Shown one piece after another: positions 36,870 through 64,000 of a stretch of 64,000 bases of DNA. The notes below the pieces were generated by a model. It saw nothing but the letters and a program-made list of their open reading frames with translations, was not told the DNA's origin and made no database searches. Where the stretch lies: the NCBI RefSeq assembly GCF_028769735.1, contig NC_088194.1, positions 3,542,319 through 3,606,318 of the forward strand, given 5' to 3'. This DNA comes from Zonotrichia leucophrys gambelii (Eukaryota; Chordata; Aves; Passeriformes; Passerellidae). Within the stretch, counting starts at the first letter, position 1. Every line of letters starts with the position of its first letter. The translations under genes were made by a program, and so were the position numbers.

Positions 36870-50962
<14,093 letters not shown>

Positions 50963-55054: not shown

Positions 55055-58000
55055 AGCCCAAACGTCACCAACATTTATTTGCTGATATTTACACGGTGGG
55101 TGTGGGTGGGGGGGTCCCCAATGTCCCTCCCAGGTTTTGGGGTCCCCAAGGTGTCCCCAATGTCCCTCCCCAAAACAGTCCCAGGCAGGAAATTGGGGAC
55201 AAACCCGAGGGTTTTGGGGTCAGAAACGGGGAAATCGGTCCAGTTGTGGGGTCAGGGGATCCTCCCACCCCAAATCCCCCTGAGGACCCCCCAAAAATCC
55301 ATCTGGGACCCCCATCTTGGGTCCCCCTCCCCAGCACAGCCCCAGGGATGGAATTGGGGACAAACCCGGGGATTTGGGGTCAGAAATGGGGAAATTGGTC
55401 CAGTTGTGGGGCTGAGGGAATCATCCCACCCCAAAACATGCGGGGACCCCAAAATCCCCCAGGGACGCCCCAAAAATCCATCTGGGACCCCCATCTTGGG
55501 TCCCCCTCCCCAAAACAGTCCCAAGCAGGGAATTGGGGACAAACCCGGGGATTTGGGGTCAGAAATGGGGAAATTGGTCCCTTTGTAGGGTCAGGGGATC
55601 CTCCCACCCCCAAACCCCCAGGGAGTACCCAGGGACCCCCAAATTCTGGCTCCACCACCCTGATGGGGATCCCCCTCCCCAAAACAGCCCCAGGGATGGA
55701 ATTGGGGACAAACCCGAGGGTTTTGGGGTCAGAAATGGGGAAATTGGTCCAGTTGTGGGGTCAGGGGATCGTCCCACCCCCAAATCCCCCAGGGACCCCA
55801 AAACCCCCAGGGACCCCCCAAAAACCCCTCTGGGACCTCCACCTTGGTCCCCCTCCCCAGCACAGCCCCAGGGATGGAATTGGGGACAAACCCGAGGGTT
55901 TTGGGGTCAGAAATGGGGAAATTGGTCCAGTTGTGGGGTCAGGGGATCCTCCCACCCCAAACCCCCCCGAGGACCCCCCAAAAATCCATCTGGGACCCCC
56001 ATCTTGGGTCCCCCTCCCCAAAACAGTCCCAAGCAGGAAATTGGGGTCAAACCCTGGGTTTTGGGGTCAGAAATGGGAAAATCCGTCCAGTTGTAGGGTC
56101 AGGGGATCGTCCCACCCCAAAACATGCGGGGACCCCAAAATCCCCCAGGGACCCCCCAAAAACCCCTCTGGGACCCCCATCTCGGGTCCCCCTCCCCAGC
56201 ACAGCCCCAGGGATGGAATTGGGGACAAACCCGGGGTTTTGGGGTCAGAAATGGGGAAATTGGTCCAGTTGTGGGGTCAGGGGATCCTCCCACCCCAAAA
56301 CCATTGGGGGCCCCAAATGGGACCCCCAAACCCCAGGGAGACCCCAGCCTGGAGCCCCTCCCCAGAACAGTCTCAGGGATGGCATCGGGGTCGGCCCCGC
56401 GGGTTTTGGGGTCAGAATGGGGAAATCGCCATTTGGTGGGTTTCCCCAAAGGAGAGGAACCCGGAGACCGGCTTGGGCACCCTCCCCACGCTCTCAGCCT
56501 TGCATGGGGTCCCGCTTTTGGGGTCAGCGGGAACCTCCGTATCCTTGTGGGTCCCCATTAGGGCTTGGACGACCCCAAAGCCTTTGGGGGTCCCCAAAAG
56601 GCCCGAGACCCCGAAATTTTGGGGTGGTGGTTTTTGGGTGGTATTTAGGGGTTGCGTTTTTGGGTGTTTGGGGTTGTTTTGGGTGGTTTTGGGTGTTTTT
56701 GGGTGTTTTGGGGTGGTTTGGGGTGGTTTTTGGGGTGTTTTGGGTGGTTTTGGGTTTGTTTTGGGGGTGGTTTTGGGTTGGTTTTGGGTGGTTTTGGGTG
56801 TTTTGGTGTTTTGGGTTGGTTTTGGGGTTTTGGGTGTTTTGGGGTGGTTTTGGGGTGGTTTGGGGTGTTTTTGGGGTTGGTTTGGTGGTGGTTTTGGGTT
56901 GGTTTTTGGGGTTGTTTTTGGGGTGTTTTGGGGTGGTTTGGTGGTGTTTTTGGGGTGTTTTTGGGTGGTTTTGGGTTGGTTTTTGGGGTGTTTTTGGGTT
57001 GGTTTTTGGGGTTGTTTTTGGGGTGTTTTGGGTTGGATTTGGTGGTGTTTTGGGGGTGTTTTGCGGTGGTTTTGGGTTGGTTTTTGGGGTGGTTTTTGGG
57101 GTGTTTTTGGGTGTTTTGGGGTGTTTTTGGGCTGGTTCTTGGGTTGGTTTTTGGGGTGTTTTTGGGGTGTTTTGGGGTGTTTTTGGGGTCGCTCACCTGG
57201 CCCTATGTCACCTCCTCGGCCGTGTCCTCGGGCCCTTTCTGCTCGGTGCCCCCCGGCGGCGACTTTGGGGCCTCGGGTTCGGCTTTTTGGGGTGCGCTGG
57301 GCTCCTTTGGGGCCTCGGGTTTTTGGGGTGCGCTGGGCTCCTTTGGGGCCTCGGCTTTTTGGGGTTTTTGGGGTGCGCTGGGCTCCTTTGGGGCCTCGGG
57401 TTCGGCTTTTTGGGGTGCGCTGGGCTCCTTTGGGGCCTCGGCTTTTTGGGGTTTTTGGGGTGCGCTGGGCTCCTTTGGGGCCTCGGCTTTTTGGGGTTTT
57501 TGGGGTTCGCTGGGCTCCTGGGGCGCCTCGGGGGGGCTGGGGCCCTGTGGGGCGACAACGGGGGGCCCCTGAGGTTTCTGGGGTCCCCCCACGGTTTTTG
57601 GGGTCTCTCCGAGGTTTTTGGGGTTTTTTTATGGTTTTTTGGGACTCCCACAGTTTTGGGCTTTCACTCCTGGATTTTTAGGACCCCCCTCCCCTGTGGT
57701 TTTTGGGATTTCTGAGGTTTTTTGGGGCTCGGATGTTTCTTTTTGGGGAACTCTCCCCGTTTTTGGGGAACTCTCCCCGTTTTTGGGGAACTCTCCCCAT
57801 TTTTGGGGCTCCCACTGTTTTTGGGATTTCCTGTGGTTTTATTTTGGGGCTCCCCACAGTTTTTTGGGATTCCCGTGGTTTTTAGGGACCCCCCCCCATT
57901 TTTTTTGGGGCTCCCTCTTGGTTTTTTGGGATTCCCGTGGTTTTTGGGATTCCTGCAGTTTTTTAGGACTCCTGCAGGGTTTTTTTTTAGGCGATTCCTG

Positions 58001-61000
58001 CCATTTTTAGGATTTACCGTGGTTTTTTTGGGATTCTCGCAGTTTTGGGGATTCCCGGGGGTTTTTGGGGTCCCTCTCAGTTTTTGGGGTCCCTTGCAGG
58101 GTTTTGGGCTCCCCCCTGTGTTTTTGGGGTCCTTGTCCCGGTTTTTGGGGTCCCTGTCAGGGTTTTTGGGGTTCCCCAGGGATTTTGGGGTCCCCTGGAG
58201 ATTTTGGGGTCCCTCTTGGTGTTTTTGGGGTCCCTAAGGGGATTTTGGGGTCCCTGTCCCGGTTTTTGGTGTCCCTCTCAGTTTTTGGGGTCCCTCGGGG
58301 GTTTTTGGGGTCCCTGTCCCGGTTTTTGGGGTCCCCTCTCAGTTTTTGGGGTCCCTGTCAGGGTTTTTGGGGTCCCTCTCAGTTTTTGGGGTCCCCCCGG
58401 GGTTTTTGGGGTCCCCCGAGGTTTTTGGGGTCCCTGTGGGTGTTTTGGGGTCCCTGTCGGGGTTTTTGGGGTCCCCTATCAGTTTTTGGGGTCCCTAAGG
58501 GGATTTTGGGGTCCCTGTCGGTGTTTTTGGGGTCCCCTATCAGTTTTTGGGGTCCCCTCTCAGTTTTTGGGGTCCCTGTCCGGGTTTTTGGGGTCCCTGT
58601 GGGTGTTTTGGGGTCCGGACCTGGTCGTTGCCCTCGGGGGGGCTCCTGCAGACGATGTCGCTGAACGGCGGCGCCTCCGCGGGGCTCTCCTCGGGCGGGG
58701 CCGTGGGCGTGGCGGCTGCGGGGAAACGGGGCAAAAACACGGGAAAATGGGAAAAATCCAGGGAAAAAAAACAGGGAAAAAACCCAGGGAAAATGGGGAA
58801 AAAAACCCAGGGAAAATGGGGGAAAAACCCAGGGAAAATGGGGGAAAAACACGGGAAAATGGGAAAAATCCAGGGAAAAAACCCAGGGAAAATGGGAAAA
58901 ATCCAGGCAAAAAACCCAGGGAAAATGGGAAAAAACCCAGGGAAAAACCAGGGGAAAAACCCCAGGGAAAATGGGGGAAAAACCCAGGGAAAATGGGGGA
59001 AAAACACGGGAAAATGGGAAAAATCCAGGGAAAAAACCCAGGGAAAATGGGAAAAAAATCCAGGGAAAATGGGGAAAATCCAGGGAAAAAACCCAGGGAA
59101 AATGGGAAAAAAATCCCAGGGAAAATGGGGAAAATCCAGGGAAAAAACCCAGGGAAAATGGGAAAAAAAATACAGGGAAAATGGGAAAAAAAATGCAGGG
59201 AAAATGGGAAAAAAAATACAGGGAAAATGGGAAAAAAATCCAGGGAAAATGGAGAAAAAAATCCAGGGAAAATGGGGAAAAAATACAGGGAAAATGGGAA
59301 AAATCCAGGGAAAATGGGAAAAAAAATCCAGGGAAAATGGGAAAAAACCCAGGGAAAATGGGGAAAAAAATACAGGGAAAATGGGAAAAAAACCCAGGGA
59401 AAATGGGGAAAATCCCAGGGAAAATGGAAAAAAACCAGGGAAAAAACCCAGGGAAAAAACCCAGGGAAAATGGGAGAAAAACCCAGGGAAAATGGGGAAA
59501 AAATCCAGGGAAAATGGGGAAAATCCCAGGGAAAATGGAAAAAAATCCAGGGAAAATGGAAAAGATAATGGAGAATGGGGGAAGAAATCAGGGGAAATGG
59601 GAAAACAGGAAAACAGTGTAACAAGAAAATGGGAAAATGGGAAAAATGGGAAAACCAGAAAAGCAGAGAATTGGGGGATTGGGAGTTGGGGGAATTATTG
59701 GGGATTTGGGAACTGGGAATTGGGGACTTTGGAATTTGGGGAGTTGGGAATTTGTGGATTTGGGAATTGGGGATTTGGCGTTTGGGAGCTGAGGAGTTGG
59801 GGATTTGGGAATTGGAAAGTGGGAGTTGGGATTTGGGGAATCGGGAATTGGGGAATTGGGGAATCGGGAAATCAGGGATTTGGGGAATCGGGAATTTGGG
59901 GATTTGGGGAATCAGGACTTGGGGATTTGGGGAATCAGGAATTTGGGGATTTGGGGAATTAGGGATTTGGGGATTTGGGGAATCGGGAAATCAGGGATTT
60001 GGGGAATTGGGAATTTCGGGATTTGGGGAATCAGGAATTTGGGGATTTGGGGAATCAGGAATTTGGGGATTTGGGGAATCGGGAATTTGGGGAATTGGGG
60101 AATCGGGAATTGGGGATTTGGGGTTTAGGAATTTGGGGGTTTGGGGGAATTAGGGAATCGGGAATTGGGGAATTGGGGAATCAGGGATTTGCGGAATCGG
60201 GAATTTTGGGATTTGGGGAATCAGGAATTGGGGATTTGGGGTTTAGGAATTTGGGGATTTGGGGATTTGGGGAATCGGGAATTTGGGGATTTGGGGAATC
60301 GGGAATTTGGGGGTTTGGGGAATTGGGGAATCGGGAATTTCGGGATTTGGGGAATCGGGGATTTGGGGTTTAGGAATTTGGGGGTTTTTGCCCACCTGCC
60401 TCGGCCGCCTTCTCGCTGTTGACCCTCCAGCACCAGAAGGCGCCGCCGAGGCTCACGGCCACCAGGATGAGGGACAGAACCACATAGCCCGAGGTGGAGA
60501 AGGCCGAGGGACCCCCTGAGGGTGGGGACACCCCGGTGACACCCCAGGGTGACACCCTGTGTGACACCCCCAGGTATGGCACCCCTGTGTGCCGTCCCCA
60601 TCCCTGTCCCCATGTCCCCGTGTCACCTCCGCCCTGGCACAGGCTCTGCAGGTCGAACACAGTGACCTGTCCCTGTCCCCTCAGTGTCCCCTCAGTGTCC
60701 CCGTGTCCCCTCAGTGTCCCCATGTCCCCATGTCCCCATGTCCCCTCAGTGTCCCCATCTCACCTCCGCCCCGGCACAGGCTCTGCAGGTCGAACACAGT
60801 GACCTGTCCCTGTCCCCTCAGTGTCCCCTGTGTCCCCGTGTCCCCTCAGTGTCCCCTCACCTCCGCCCTGGCACAGGCTCTGCAGGTCGAACAGGGCGAT
60901 CTGTGCCCATGTCCCCTCAGTGTCCCCGTGTCCCCTCAGTGTCCCCTGTGTCCCCTGTCCCCTCAGTGCCCTCATGTCCCCTCAGTGTCCCCATCTCACC

Positions 61001-61933
61001 TCCGCCCTGGCACAGGCTCTGCAGGTCGAACAGGGTGACCTGTCCCTGTCCCCGTGTCCCCTCAGCGTCTCCTCAGTGTCCCCATGTCCCCATCTCACCT
61101 CCGCCCTGGCACAGGCTCTGCAGGCCGAACACAGTGATCTGTCCCCATGTCCCCTCAGTGTCCCCATGTCCCCTCAGTGTCCCCATGTCCCCTCGGTGTC
61201 CCCATGTCCCCTCACCTCCGCCCTGGCACAGGCTCTGCAGGCCGAACACAGTGACCTGTCCCTGTCCCCTCAGTGTCCCCTCAGTGTCCCCTCAGTGTCC
61301 CCATGTCCCCTCACCTCCGCCCTGGCAGAGGCTCTGCAGGTCGAACAGGGCGATCTGTCCCCATCCCTGTCCCCATGTCCCCTCAGTGTCCCCACGTCCC
61401 CCATGTCCCCTCAGTGTCCCCATGTCCATGTCCCCTCACCTCCACCCTGGCACAGGCTCTGCAGGCTGAACAGGGTGATCTGTCCCCATGTCCCCTCAGT
61501 GTCCCCATGTCCCCTCGGTGTCCCCGTGTCCCCTCAGTGTCTCAGTGTCCCCATCTCACCTCCGCCCTGGCAGAGGCTCTGCAGGTCGAACACAGTGACC
61601 TGTCCCTGTCCCCTCAGTGTCCCCATGTCCCCTCACCTCCGCCCTGGCAGAGGCTCTGCAGGTCGAACTCGGCCACCTTGTGGTCGGCGGGGTTGCTGAC
61701 GGTGCACGCGTAGGTGACGTTGGTGGCGGCGGGCGGCAGCGCCACCCTCAGGGTGGTGCCGTCGGGGGACAGCTGGTGGCGCCCGGGCCCCAGGCGGCCC
61801 CAGGCCAGGCTGTCGCGCCGCCAGGTGACATTGACGGCGCCGCGCCCGCTGCCCTGGCACTGCAGCGTCAGGTTGCACCACTCGAGCGTGCTGGCCAGGA
61901 GCTGGCTGCGGGTGCGGGGGCTGGGCACGGCCT
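55055..61933 (-). CDS. SLAM/CD2-family receptor, 3' part: C2 Ig domain, transmembrane and tail exons
   Basis: Four minus-strand exons join in frame: 61637-61933, 60396-60515, 58621-58715 and 57203-57544. The first encodes a CD2-family C2-type Ig domain with the hallmark cysteines (EWCNLTLQC, YACTVSNP, QSLCQ). Next come a transmembrane helix (VVLSLILVAVSLGGAFWCW) and a proline-rich tail with PKEPSAPQK repeats ending EEVT. Members are homophilic or heterophilic leukocyte receptors on the cell surface. The V-domain and signal-peptide exons are right of the window, although V-exon edge copies occur at 63.57-63.94 kb. I cannot assign the orthologue, and no complete TxYxxV/I switch motif is visible. 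A fully intergenic HEPACAM-type or other CD2-like gene remains possible. Confidence 0.75.
55074..55079 (-). terminator. Poly(A) signal AATAAA of the SLAM-like gene
   Basis: AATAAA on the minus strand, followed by a T/GT-rich stretch (tgttggtgacgtttgggctg), is a convincing cleavage signal, about 0.9 kb upstream of the ETV3 CpG island. Confidence 0.65.
55110..56450. repeat. Tandem repeat, about 180-bp unit, in the SLAM-like 3' region
   Basis: About seven units with gaattggggacaaacccgag, ggttttggggtcagaaatgg, ggaaattggtccagttgtgg, ggtcaggggatcctcccacc and gggacccccatcttgggtcc. It lies between the poly(A) signal and the stop codon, so it is 3' UTR or intron. The length is often divisible by three, which creates long open frames on both strands. 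Confidence 0.92.
56600..57195. repeat. G/T-only minisatellite (ggttttgggtggttttgggg)
   Basis: About 600 nt of almost pure G and T on the plus strand (ttttggggtgttttggggtg), ending at the donor after the SLAM-like terminal coding exon. Runs of three or four G at short spacing make G-quadruplex formation plausible on the plus strand. The transcript of the gene would be the C-rich complement. Confidence 0.92.
57203..57544 (-). CDS. SLAM-like tail exon B with coding minisatellite
   Basis: 342 nt after a good acceptor (gtcgccccacag), phase 0, 113 residues then TAG at 57205-57203. It is built of repeats such as KAEAPKEPSAPQKPQ of 12, 14 or 15 residues. All unit lengths are multiples of three, unlike the intron repeats, which argues for selection on an open frame. 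PxxP words suggest possible SH3 ligands. Six bases after the stop lies a consensus donor (GGCCAG|gtgagc), so the 3' UTR is probably spliced, or the stop is a mutated residue. Confidence 0.7.
   Translation of the reverse strand, partial: GPSPPEAPQEPSEPQKPQKAEAPKEPSAPQKPQKAEAPKEPSAPQKAEPEAPKEPSAPQKPQKAEAPKEPSAPQKPEAPKEPSAPQKAEPEAPKSPPGGTEQKGPEDTAEEVT
57575..58610. repeat. Intronic minisatellite (tttttggggtccctgtc type)
   Basis: Units of 17-33 bp with tttttggggtccctctcagt are regular from 58040 on. The first part (57575-58040) is related but looser (gggaactctccccgttttt). Confidence 0.9.
58621..58715 (-). CDS. SLAM-like cytoplasmic tail exon A
   Basis: 95 nt after gtttccccgcag. It encodes AATPTAPPEESPAEAPPFSD then IVCRSPPEGNDQ. 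The donor after CAG is gtccgg, which is weak, so the 3' boundary is less certain. Flanked on both sides by minisatellites. No tyrosine motif in this exon. Confidence 0.7.
58730..59690. repeat. Intronic minisatellite (cagggaaaatgggaaaaa)
   Basis: About 45 units of 17-22 bp, cccagggaaaatggggaaaa and variants, between tail exon A and the next repeat. Confidence 0.93.
59690..60385. repeat. Intronic minisatellite (ggaatttggggatttgggga)
   Basis: Units of about 9-25 bp, atttggggaatcgggaattt, run to the donor of the transmembrane exon. Confidence 0.92.
60396..60515 (-). CDS. SLAM-like transmembrane exon
   Basis: 120 nt between ccccaccctcag and gtgggc. It encodes GGPSAFSTSGY, then the hydrophobic helix VVLSLILVAVSLGGAFWCW, then a basic stop-transfer (RVNSEKAAEA). 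Phase 1 in and out. Confidence 0.88.
60623..61600 (-). repeat. Nine tandem copies of the 3' edge of the SLAM-like C2 exon with donor
   Basis: On the minus strand each unit holds TTCGACCTGCAGAGCCTGTG then CCAGGGCGGAGgtgag, i.e. the last codons (FDLQSLCQGG) and donor, followed by a cactgaggggacatggggac intronic repeat. Edges lie at about 60630, 60761, 60864, 61000, 61098, 61213, 61317, 61440 and 61558, and the authentic one is at 61637. Spacing is about 100-140 bp. Confidence 0.93.
61637..61933 (-). CDS. SLAM-like C2 Ig-domain exon
   Basis: 297 nt after gttttgcag. It encodes AVPSPRTRSQLLASTLEWCN onwards. Paired cysteines WCNLTLQC and YACTVSNP...SLC give the two-disulphide C2 fold typical of CD2/SLAM proteins, with N-glycosylation sites NLT, NVT and NVT. 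The donor GGCGGAG|gtgagg leaves phase 1. Both edges of this exon have been amplified into the flanking introns. Confidence 0.85.
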
Positions 61934-62029
61934 CTGCAAAACGGGGGGCACGGGGTGGCACCGAAACCGCCGAAAATGTCCCCAAAAATCACCAAAAATC
62001 CCACCAAAAATCCCCCCCAAAATCTGTCC

Positions 62030-63390
62030 CTGTCCCCAGGAGCTGGCTGCGGGTGCGGGGGCTGGGCACGGCCTCTGCAAAACGGGGGCACGGGGTGGCA
62101 CCGAAACCGCCGAAAATGTCCCCAAAAATATCCCCAAATCCCCCCAAAAAAACTCCAAAAATCCCCCCAAAAAAATCCCAAAAATTCCCCCCCAAAATCT
62201 GTCCCTGTCCCCAGGAGCTGGCTGCGGGTGCGGGGGCTGGGCACGGCCTCTGCAAAACGGGGGGCACGGGGTGGTGACAAAAACACCCCAAAAATCCTCC
62301 CCAAAAATCCCAAAAAAACCCCCAAAAAATCCCCCCAAAAAACTCCAAAAATCCCCCAAAAAATCCCCCCAAAATCTGTCCCTGTCCCCAGGAGCTGGCT
62401 GCAGGTGCAGGGGCTGGGCACGGCCTCTGCAAAACGGGGGGCACGGGGTGGCACCGAAACCGCCAAAAATGTCCCCAAAAATCCCCAAAAATCCCCCGAA
62501 AAAACCCCCAAAAAATCCCAAAAAATCCCCCCCAAAATCTGTCCCTGTCCCCAGCCCTGGCCAGGAGCTGGCTGCGGGTGCGGGGGCTGGGCACGGCCTC
62601 TGCAACGGGGGGCACGGGGTGGCACCGAAACCGCCAAAAATGTCCCCAAAAATCCCCTCAAATATCCCCAAAAAAAACTCCAAAAATCCCCCCAAAAAAT
62701 CCCCCCCAAAAAATCCCCCCAAAAATCTGTCCCCAGGAGCTGGCTGCGGGTGCGGGGGCTGGGCACGGCCTCTGCAACGGGGGCACGGGGTGGTGACAAA
62801 AACACCCCAAAAATCACCAAAAATCCCAAAAAACCCCCCAAAAAATCCCCCCAAAAAACTCCAAAAAATCCCCCCAAAAATCCCAAAAAATCCCCCCCAA
62901 AATCTGTCCCTGTCCCCAGCCCTGGCCAGGAGCTGGCTGCGGGTGCGGGGGCTGGGCACGGCCTCTGCAACGGGGGGCACGGGGTGGCACCGAAACCACC
63001 GAAAATATCCCCAAAAATCCCCCCAAAAATCCCATAAAAATAGGCAAAAATCCCACCAAAAATCCCCCCAAAAATACCCTAAAAATCCCCCCAAAAAACT
63101 CCAAAAAATCCCAAAAAATCCCCCAAAAAAACCTCCAAAAATCCCCCCAAAAATCCCAAAAAATCCCCCCAAAATCTGTCCCTGTCCCCAGGAGCTGGCT
63201 GCGGGTGCGGGGGCTGGGCACGGCCTCTGCAACGGGGGCACGGCAATGGTGACAAAAACACCGAAAATATCCCCAAAAATCCCCTCAAATCCCCCAAAAA
63301 ACCCCCCAAAAAAACCCCCCAAAAAATGCCCCCAAAAATCCCCCCCAAAAATCCCTCAAAACCTCCCCAAGGCACGGCCTCTGCAACGGG
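62030..63390 (-). repeat. Eight tandem copies of the 5' edge of the SLAM-like C2 exon with acceptor
   Basis: On the minus strand each unit reads ttgcag, then AGGCCGTGCCCAGCCCCCGC and ACCCGCAGCCAGCTCCTGG, followed by A-poor, G/T-rich intronic sequence. Edges are near 62082, 62259, 62435, 62605, 62777, 62971, 63232 and 63385 (the last truncated). The authentic acceptor is at 61933. Spacers are made of ccccaaaaatcccc-type repeats (plus strand). Confidence 0.93.
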
Positions 63391-63564
63391 GGCACGGGAG
63401 TGGTAACAAAACCACCAAAAATATCCCCAAAAATCCCCTCAAATCCCTCAAAAACCTCCCCAAAAATCCCCCCAAAAAATCCCACCTTAACTAATGAATG
63501 ATTAAATGAACGATTAAATTAGTAATTAAATGAGTGAATTAAATTAATTAACCACGTCCCCTCA

Positions 63565-63940
63565 CCGCAGACGGACAGGTTGAAGGCCTGACCATCCATC
63601 AGTGTCAGCTAGAACCCCATTTCTGCTCCGTGCCTCAGTTTCCCCACCAAAAACCCACCTTAACCCAATGACCCAATTCAATTAATAACTAAATGGATGA
63701 ATTAAATTAATTAACCGCTCCCCCTCACTGCAGACAGACAGGTTGAAGGCCTGATCATCCATCAGTGTCACCTAGAGCCCCATTAGTGTTCCGTGCCTCA
63801 GTTTCCCCACCAAAAACCCAAGTTAACCCAATGAACAATGAACCAATTAATCAATTAATTAATTAACCATCTCCCCTCACCATAGACAGACAGGTTGAAG
63901 GTCTGATCCCCATCAGTGTCACCTAAAACCCCATTTCTGC
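63565..63940 (-). repeat. Three tandem copies of a presumed V-domain exon 3' edge with donor
   Basis: On the minus strand the units read GGCCTTCAACCTGTCCGTCT then GCGgtgagg (copies near 63567, 63724 and 63873). In frame this is QAFNLSVC plus one base. That fits the end of a SLAM-type V domain and its phase fits the C2 exon (C-E-A-V-P). The full exon should lie to the right of the window. Copies to the left are downstream, as in the other three cases. Sequence between copies is a tccgtgcctcagtttcccca-containing spacer of about 150 bp. Confidence 0.7.
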
Positions 63941-64000
63941 TCCGTGCCTCAGTTTCCCCACCCAAACCCCAAGTTAACCCAATGAACAATGAACCAATTA

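Follow-up and report, generated by a model that had tools for sequence, protein, structure and literature searches.

Both edges of two adjacent immunoglobulin (Ig) exons in a songbird SLAM-family receptor gene have been amplified outward into the flanking introns. The two exons are accompanied by 43 decoy splice sites distributed over all four of their edges, and the GT or AG dinucleotide is intact in 42 of these. Local tandem duplication and exchange that take no account of exon borders, filtered by selection on the exon, probably gave rise to these arrays.

A SLAM-family receptor gene in repeat-dense DNA

The window, that is, the whole 64,000-nt stretch of DNA that was analyzed, is located on a contig of 4,037,257 bases (4.04 Mb) in a genome of 1.12 Gb. 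We take this contig to be the counterpart of chicken chromosome 25, judging from the order of the contigs and from gene content, and it is probably not a dot chromosome. The receptor gene lies on the minus strand, as do all features described below unless stated otherwise, and contains a signal-peptide exon (near 72296), a V-type Ig exon (65903-66244, just to the right of the window and therefore outside it), a C2-type Ig exon (61637-61933; 297 nt), a membrane exon (60396-60515), a cytoplasmic exon (58621-58715) and a tail exon (57203-57544). The functional C2 exon matches Pfam Ig_3 with an E value of 1.2e-05, which is under the curated cut-off, and its borders read TTTTGCAG/AGGCC ... GGCGGAG/GTGAGG, with slashes at the splice junctions. 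Across the junction between the C2 and membrane exons, the DNA-encoded protein reads QGGGGPS.

The exons follow the order characteristic of the SLAM family (V, then C2, membrane and cytoplasmic exons), and the similarity of the gene product points to the same assignment. Its best match among solved structures is SLAMF6 (E 4.6e-05), and the top database matches listed come from birds, for the most part bear the names SLAM family or Ly-9, and are 64-96% identical over nearly the full query, the closest among the matches listed being a protein of the finch Geospiza parvula (96% identical). The cytoplasmic ITSM motif, defined as TxYxxV/I, was not found in the exons read; its likeliest position is occupied by PPFSDIVCR, which contains no tyrosine. 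Because some SLAM-family members are devoid of ITSM motifs, this absence does not exclude membership in the family. The FSDIV form of the cytoplasmic exon is also present in Haemorhous (P0002), and YSDIV or YTDIV is found at this position in several other birds.

The introns of this gene consist largely of repeats. Arrays identified by Tandem Repeats Finder cover 76-98% of each of five introns, and they extend over 32% of the V exon and 13% of the C2 exon. Motifs resembling G-quadruplexes (G4) are more frequent than in mononucleotide shuffles on one strand in each of five arrays examined. Across the 182 kb around the window, repeat coverage per 20 kb (Tandem Repeats Finder) is 23% at the left end and 47% at the window start; between roughly 20 and 140 kb it amounts to 66-74%, and in the last short stretch to 30%.

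Edge copies of the C2 and V exons

The intron between the C2 and membrane exons contains nine extra copies of the C2 donor edge (60594-61591), each comprising 32 nt of exon together with the donor. Their exon-intron boundaries are at 60626, 60763, 60860, 60999, 61098, 61215, 61314, 61439 and 61559, and GT is intact in all nine, as is the longer GTGAG in eight. On the opposite side of the exon, in the V-C2 intron, are eight extra copies of the acceptor edge (62036-63413), with boundaries at 62074, 62249, 62426, 62599, 62771, 62964, 63226 and 63380. All eight retain AG; seven contain 39-43 nt of exon, and the outermost contains 10 nt. On alignment, these counts agree exactly with the original prediction of eight acceptor and nine donor copies around one intact exon, and the copies also conform to its description in that they keep their splice dinucleotides and all face away from the single intact exon. 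The directions that it called upstream and downstream are correct in transcript orientation because the gene is on the minus strand. An origin of the decoys as copies of other, paralogous exons, which had been raised together with the prediction, was rejected: in a whole-genome DNA search with the C2 exon, which scores best candidates only, ten of the ten matches listed fall at this locus.

The V exon is likewise amplified on both sides, with 15 donor-edge and 11 acceptor-edge copies that lie mostly beyond the window and together span 63524-67994 in window coordinates. Each donor copy includes 28-45 nt of exon and a GT (15 of 15), and the acceptor copies include 76 nt of exon in ten of 11 cases and AG also in ten of 11. 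The part of the donor series that is inside the window (63524-64000) has boundaries at 63565, 63728 and 63880, and the series continues to about 65791. Read in transcript order, the 3969-nt V-C2 intron thus contains 15 V decoy donors and then eight C2 decoy acceptors, is 98% under tandem repeats (Tandem Repeats Finder), and is in essence two facing edge series. The possibility that V-C2 decoys frame new cassette exons was rejected, as all 15 decoy donors precede the eight decoy acceptors. Some database protein models (P0006, P0111) match the region of the V-acceptor array, perhaps as a result of gene-prediction noise.

Chance similarity was assessed with 100 dinucleotide shuffles each of intron 1 (a 2756-nt part), intron 2 and intron 3, using blastn-short with 20 nt and 42.1 bits as the minimum for a match, the threshold applied to exon stuttering in chicken (PMC12954441). 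The real sequences of introns 1 (part), 2 and 3 yielded 9, 16 and 8 such matches, respectively; the shuffled ones yielded none at 42.1 bits or above, with best scores of 30.2, 26.3 and 24.3.

Amplification elsewhere in the gene and region

Nine edges of the SLAM gene were surveyed, covering the exons other than the signal-peptide exon. Border-spanning copies are present at four of these edges, intron-only arrays at another four (both edges of the cytoplasmic exon, the tail-exon acceptor and the membrane-exon donor), and no array at the remaining one, the membrane-exon acceptor; the membrane exon accordingly has edge-spanning copies at neither side. The tail exon has itself undergone an in-frame tandem expansion of coding sequence. 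Counted from the GNDQ position of its relatives, it encodes 117 amino acids, a figure in which the four residues of GNDQ are added to the 113 read, versus 41-56 in the 19 listed relatives that were compared, none of which has the in-frame expansion. Since this array sits inside coding sequence, amplification is not confined to exon borders.

Similar arrays are found in two other genes. An exon encoding an ETS domain (48314-48552, the acceptor end being approximate by a base; Pfam E 2.9e-23), whose best solved-structure match is ERF, is followed by 19 decoy donors distributed over 3.1 kb (45135-48230), all of them with GT, and its acceptor side displays repeats of intron sequence only. A second SLAM-like V exon, 31% identical, resides about 85 kb away on the plus strand (contig position 3692719; L035:4463-5876). 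Its donor edge is amplified into at least six copies, eight being counted by alignment and six having an intact GTGAG, and edge copies are absent from its acceptor side. Pooled over the three genes, six of the 13 edges examined are amplified. The involvement of the ETS exon and the second SLAM V exon makes the amplification a regional feature and not an Ig-specific one.

For comparison, 40 Ig exons elsewhere in the genome were inspected with 1.5-kb flanks. These were the best-scoring domain matches (10 V-set and 30 Ig_3), mostly on larger contigs and with microchromosomal Ig exons left out, and four of them have an exon-overlapping match in their flanks, of which one is edge-like and in single copy. 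The three matches that were not counted (L044, L047 and L055) involve 28-92 nt of exon at 69-86% identity and look like sister Ig exons. A V-set exon on contig C17 (L021, 1181-1281 and 1422-1522) has a single 101-nt copy of the region around its upstream edge, 90% identical, which may represent an early phase of such amplification.

When 10 of the 70 candidate open reading frames were scanned against Pfam, the ETS exon was identified along with a Tc5/DDE transposase and an exon of a proteasome gene, and one frame gave weak zinc-finger-type matches. The transposase is a 714-amino-acid open frame (L019:659-2800, plus strand) with Tc5 DNA-binding and DDE transposase domains. A further open frame of 432 amino acids (window 39890-41185, minus strand) has no Pfam match, and sequence from its 5′ end recurs in the DNA next to it.

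Origin of the copies

A border-blind origin can be pictured as follows. The introns would behave as minisatellite-like arrays whose size rises and falls through recurrent duplication and exchange over short distances. Arrays that reach an Ig exon have units that span the border and contain the splice site along with about 30-76 nt of exon sequence. Duplication itself would ignore exon borders, and selection on the exon would set what survives. When one breakpoint falls in the intron and the other in the exon, the exon would be left whole, with the extra edge on its intron side; when both fall within the folded Ig domain, the duplication would be lost. An in-frame duplication within a disordered tail would be tolerated, as appears to have happened in the last exon. 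The geometry of surviving duplications would therefore suffice to explain why the copies face outward, with no need for a special process. Border-spanning, intron-only and in-frame coding arrays, the three outcomes predicted by this scheme, all occur in one gene.

The original prediction favored copying that is initiated at exon borders, a claim that is not supported in view of the intron-only arrays beside four of nine edges, the array within the tail exon, and the lack of a significant gradient. If a directional process, such as repair- or R-loop-linked copying at splice sites, emitted copies outward from the border, it would account for the outward amplification of four out of four edges of the two Ig exons, and it would agree with published chicken cases, in which more than 90% of sources are at most one base away from the border (PMC12954441); a screen that uses exons as queries must in any case find array sources near borders. 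The correlation between identity to the functional edge and rank along the series has the expected sign in three of four series (rho -0.40, -0.36, -0.52 and 0.14), and it is significant in none of them (p 0.22, 0.18, 0.18 and 0.72, respectively). Given the three negative coefficients, a weak gradient may be hidden by small numbers. The unit most closely related to a given one is not adjacent but 2-9 units distant in 43 of 47 cases, which points to multi-unit exchange and not to stepwise emission from the border. Stepwise outward copying was rejected on these two grounds, and we regard any such directional process as unlikely. The border-blind reading carries a difficulty of its own, in that borders must be struck often: six of the 13 edges examined in three genes are amplified.

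Tandem arrays are also hard to assemble, and the present ones come from one assembly; misassembly could conceivably have multiplied the repeats. This is extremely unlikely to explain the pattern, given that the divergence of copies from the functional edge reaches about 25%, that their spacings are irregular (77-262 nt), that the arrangement recurs at three genes, and that it is known from published work, in which raw nanopore reads were used to check one chicken intron (PMC12954441). The copy numbers given here may nevertheless be off even if the arrays are genuine.

Possible exchange between functional edges and decoys

Border-blind duplication and exchange could also involve the functional edge itself. 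In the SLAM gene, variants common to at least two copies are synonymous in 15 of 24 cases (expected fraction 0.298, p = 0.0009), and private variants in 11 of 34 (p = 0.44). The corresponding counts are 11 of 23 shared (p = 0.013) and five of 12 private variants (p = 0.15) for the ETS exon, and two of four and one of five for the second SLAM exon. Pooled over the three exons, 28 of 51 shared versus 17 of 51 private variants are synonymous (one-sided Fisher p = 0.023), an excess that is only suggestive because the statistics treat copies that are not independent. This leaning of shared variants toward synonymous changes implies that the copies are not purely neutral descendants and that the functional edge seems to participate; it suggests that many variants went through a functional exon prior to copying or in the interval from one round to the next. 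At arginine codons, several of the ETS variants that are shared are non-synonymous, and the copies therefore also decay as noncoding DNA.

Individual residues offer similar hints. Nine of the 15 V-donor decoys encode the alanine of Geospiza and Haemorhous, and five encode threonine, like the functional exon; at the C2 acceptor, the functional TTTTGCAG form is common to the three nearest decoys only. It is a tentative possibility, on the doubtful side, that the functional edge is a living member of the array, with coding sequence flowing in both directions between edge and decoys through gene conversion or block exchange. If so, the intronic decoys would archive past exon alleles and could return them to the protein, and the edges of immune-receptor exons would represent a conversion-driven source of variation.

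Predicted consequences for splicing

Splicing from a decoy donor would lead to a stop eight codons past the end of the exon for the 15 V decoys and seven codons past it for the nine C2 decoys. Among the eight C2 decoy acceptors, three preserve the frame, as judged from lengths of 141, 666 and 1293 nt, and each of these meets a stop; the other five shift it. Decoys are presumably tolerated because each is more distant from its partner site than the functional site is, and exon definition would then select the innermost pair of acceptor and donor, here the functional pair.

A regulatory role, in which decoys are selected for producing truncated or soluble receptor forms or for slowing splicing, would be compatible with the intact GT or AG of 42 of the 43 decoys. 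In addition, read-through at the C2 donor stops after seven codons, before the membrane exon, and use of a decoy donor could therefore in principle give an anchorless form. The splice core does not, however, exceed the remainder of the copied block in conservation: between 40% and 72% of all dinucleotides in four copied blocks are at least as conserved as the splice dinucleotides. The core is thus neither specially kept nor destroyed relative to its surroundings, and selection for or against decoys was rejected on this basis. Like arrays are found in an ETS transcription-factor gene, and the V-C2 junction has no insert in any of the 31 relatives aligned (31 proteins at this junction; the C2-membrane junction was viewed in eight relatives). 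Selected splicing regulation is accordingly very unlikely, and the locus is expected to be an unstable region with the potential for mis-splicing and with no dedicated function.

Comparison with known systems

Sequence or exon stuttering, as defined in chicken by Hron et al. (2026; PMC12954441), is the copying of a lateral part of an exon, together with its donor or acceptor, through the adjoining intron. According to the main text of that paper, it affects 115 chicken genes and 236 introns, of which 190 are on dot chromosomes and ten on other microchromosomes, and the lengths of stuttering introns vary strongly between birds. The original prediction knew of no comparable case; these 115 genes supply precedents for exon-edge copies with splice sites. 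In a full-text literature search, the stuttering terms (sequence, exon, introns) turned up in PMC12954441 only. A two-sided arrangement was not found named in the passages of its main text considered, and the phrase "both sides" occurs zero times in the paper; two-sided cases may nevertheless exist among the 115 genes.

The present arrays have the sequence properties of exon stuttering. Copies span the splice site at four Ig-exon edges and at the ETS donor, and they form imperfect tandem clusters between intact exons, with the exception of the coding array in the tail exon. As described for chicken in PMC12954441, the edge copies are in direct orientation and carry a splice site, the tandems are imperfect, intron-only arrays occur elsewhere, and the setting here is a repeat-dense contig of microchromosome size. 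The excess of G4 motifs is in line with the replication-stress idea of that paper, and is no test of mechanism. The copied exon part is about 30-76 nt here and 20-187 nt (median 36) in chicken, and there are 8-19 copies per edge here and 1-44 (median 4) in chicken (PMC12954441). The host in this case is a songbird and not chicken. Both edges of two adjacent exons are affected, with two series meeting in one intron, an arrangement not seen in the passages of PMC12954441 considered, and one array lies in frame within a coding exon, whereas that text states no case crossing into adjacent exons. Relative to what was seen there, the new elements are the songbird host, the two-sided amplification of adjacent exons, the expansion of a coding exon, and the hints of exchange between edges and decoys.

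These observations indicate that the instability underlying exon stuttering extends to songbird immune-receptor and transcription-factor genes and that both edges of adjacent exons can be affected at once. The tail-exon expansion suggests that proteins, too, can be lengthened by a process of this kind. Dozens of near-perfect, outward-facing decoys provide a natural test of exon definition among competing sites.

Two other systems share parts of this architecture. Tandem-repeat introns with G-quadruplex motifs have been reported in avian GC-rich genes (Beauclair et al., 2019; PMC6792250) and are common to those genes and to the present locus; exon-edge copies are found here, and the portions of that report considered describe none. 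Intronic VNTRs such as TERT VNTR6-1 (PMC11830802) resemble the arrays in having units of tens of bases and a link to splicing. Unlike TERT VNTR6-1, as it is presented in that source, the repeat unit described here takes in part of an exon together with a splice site, and it is within the exon that the array ends.
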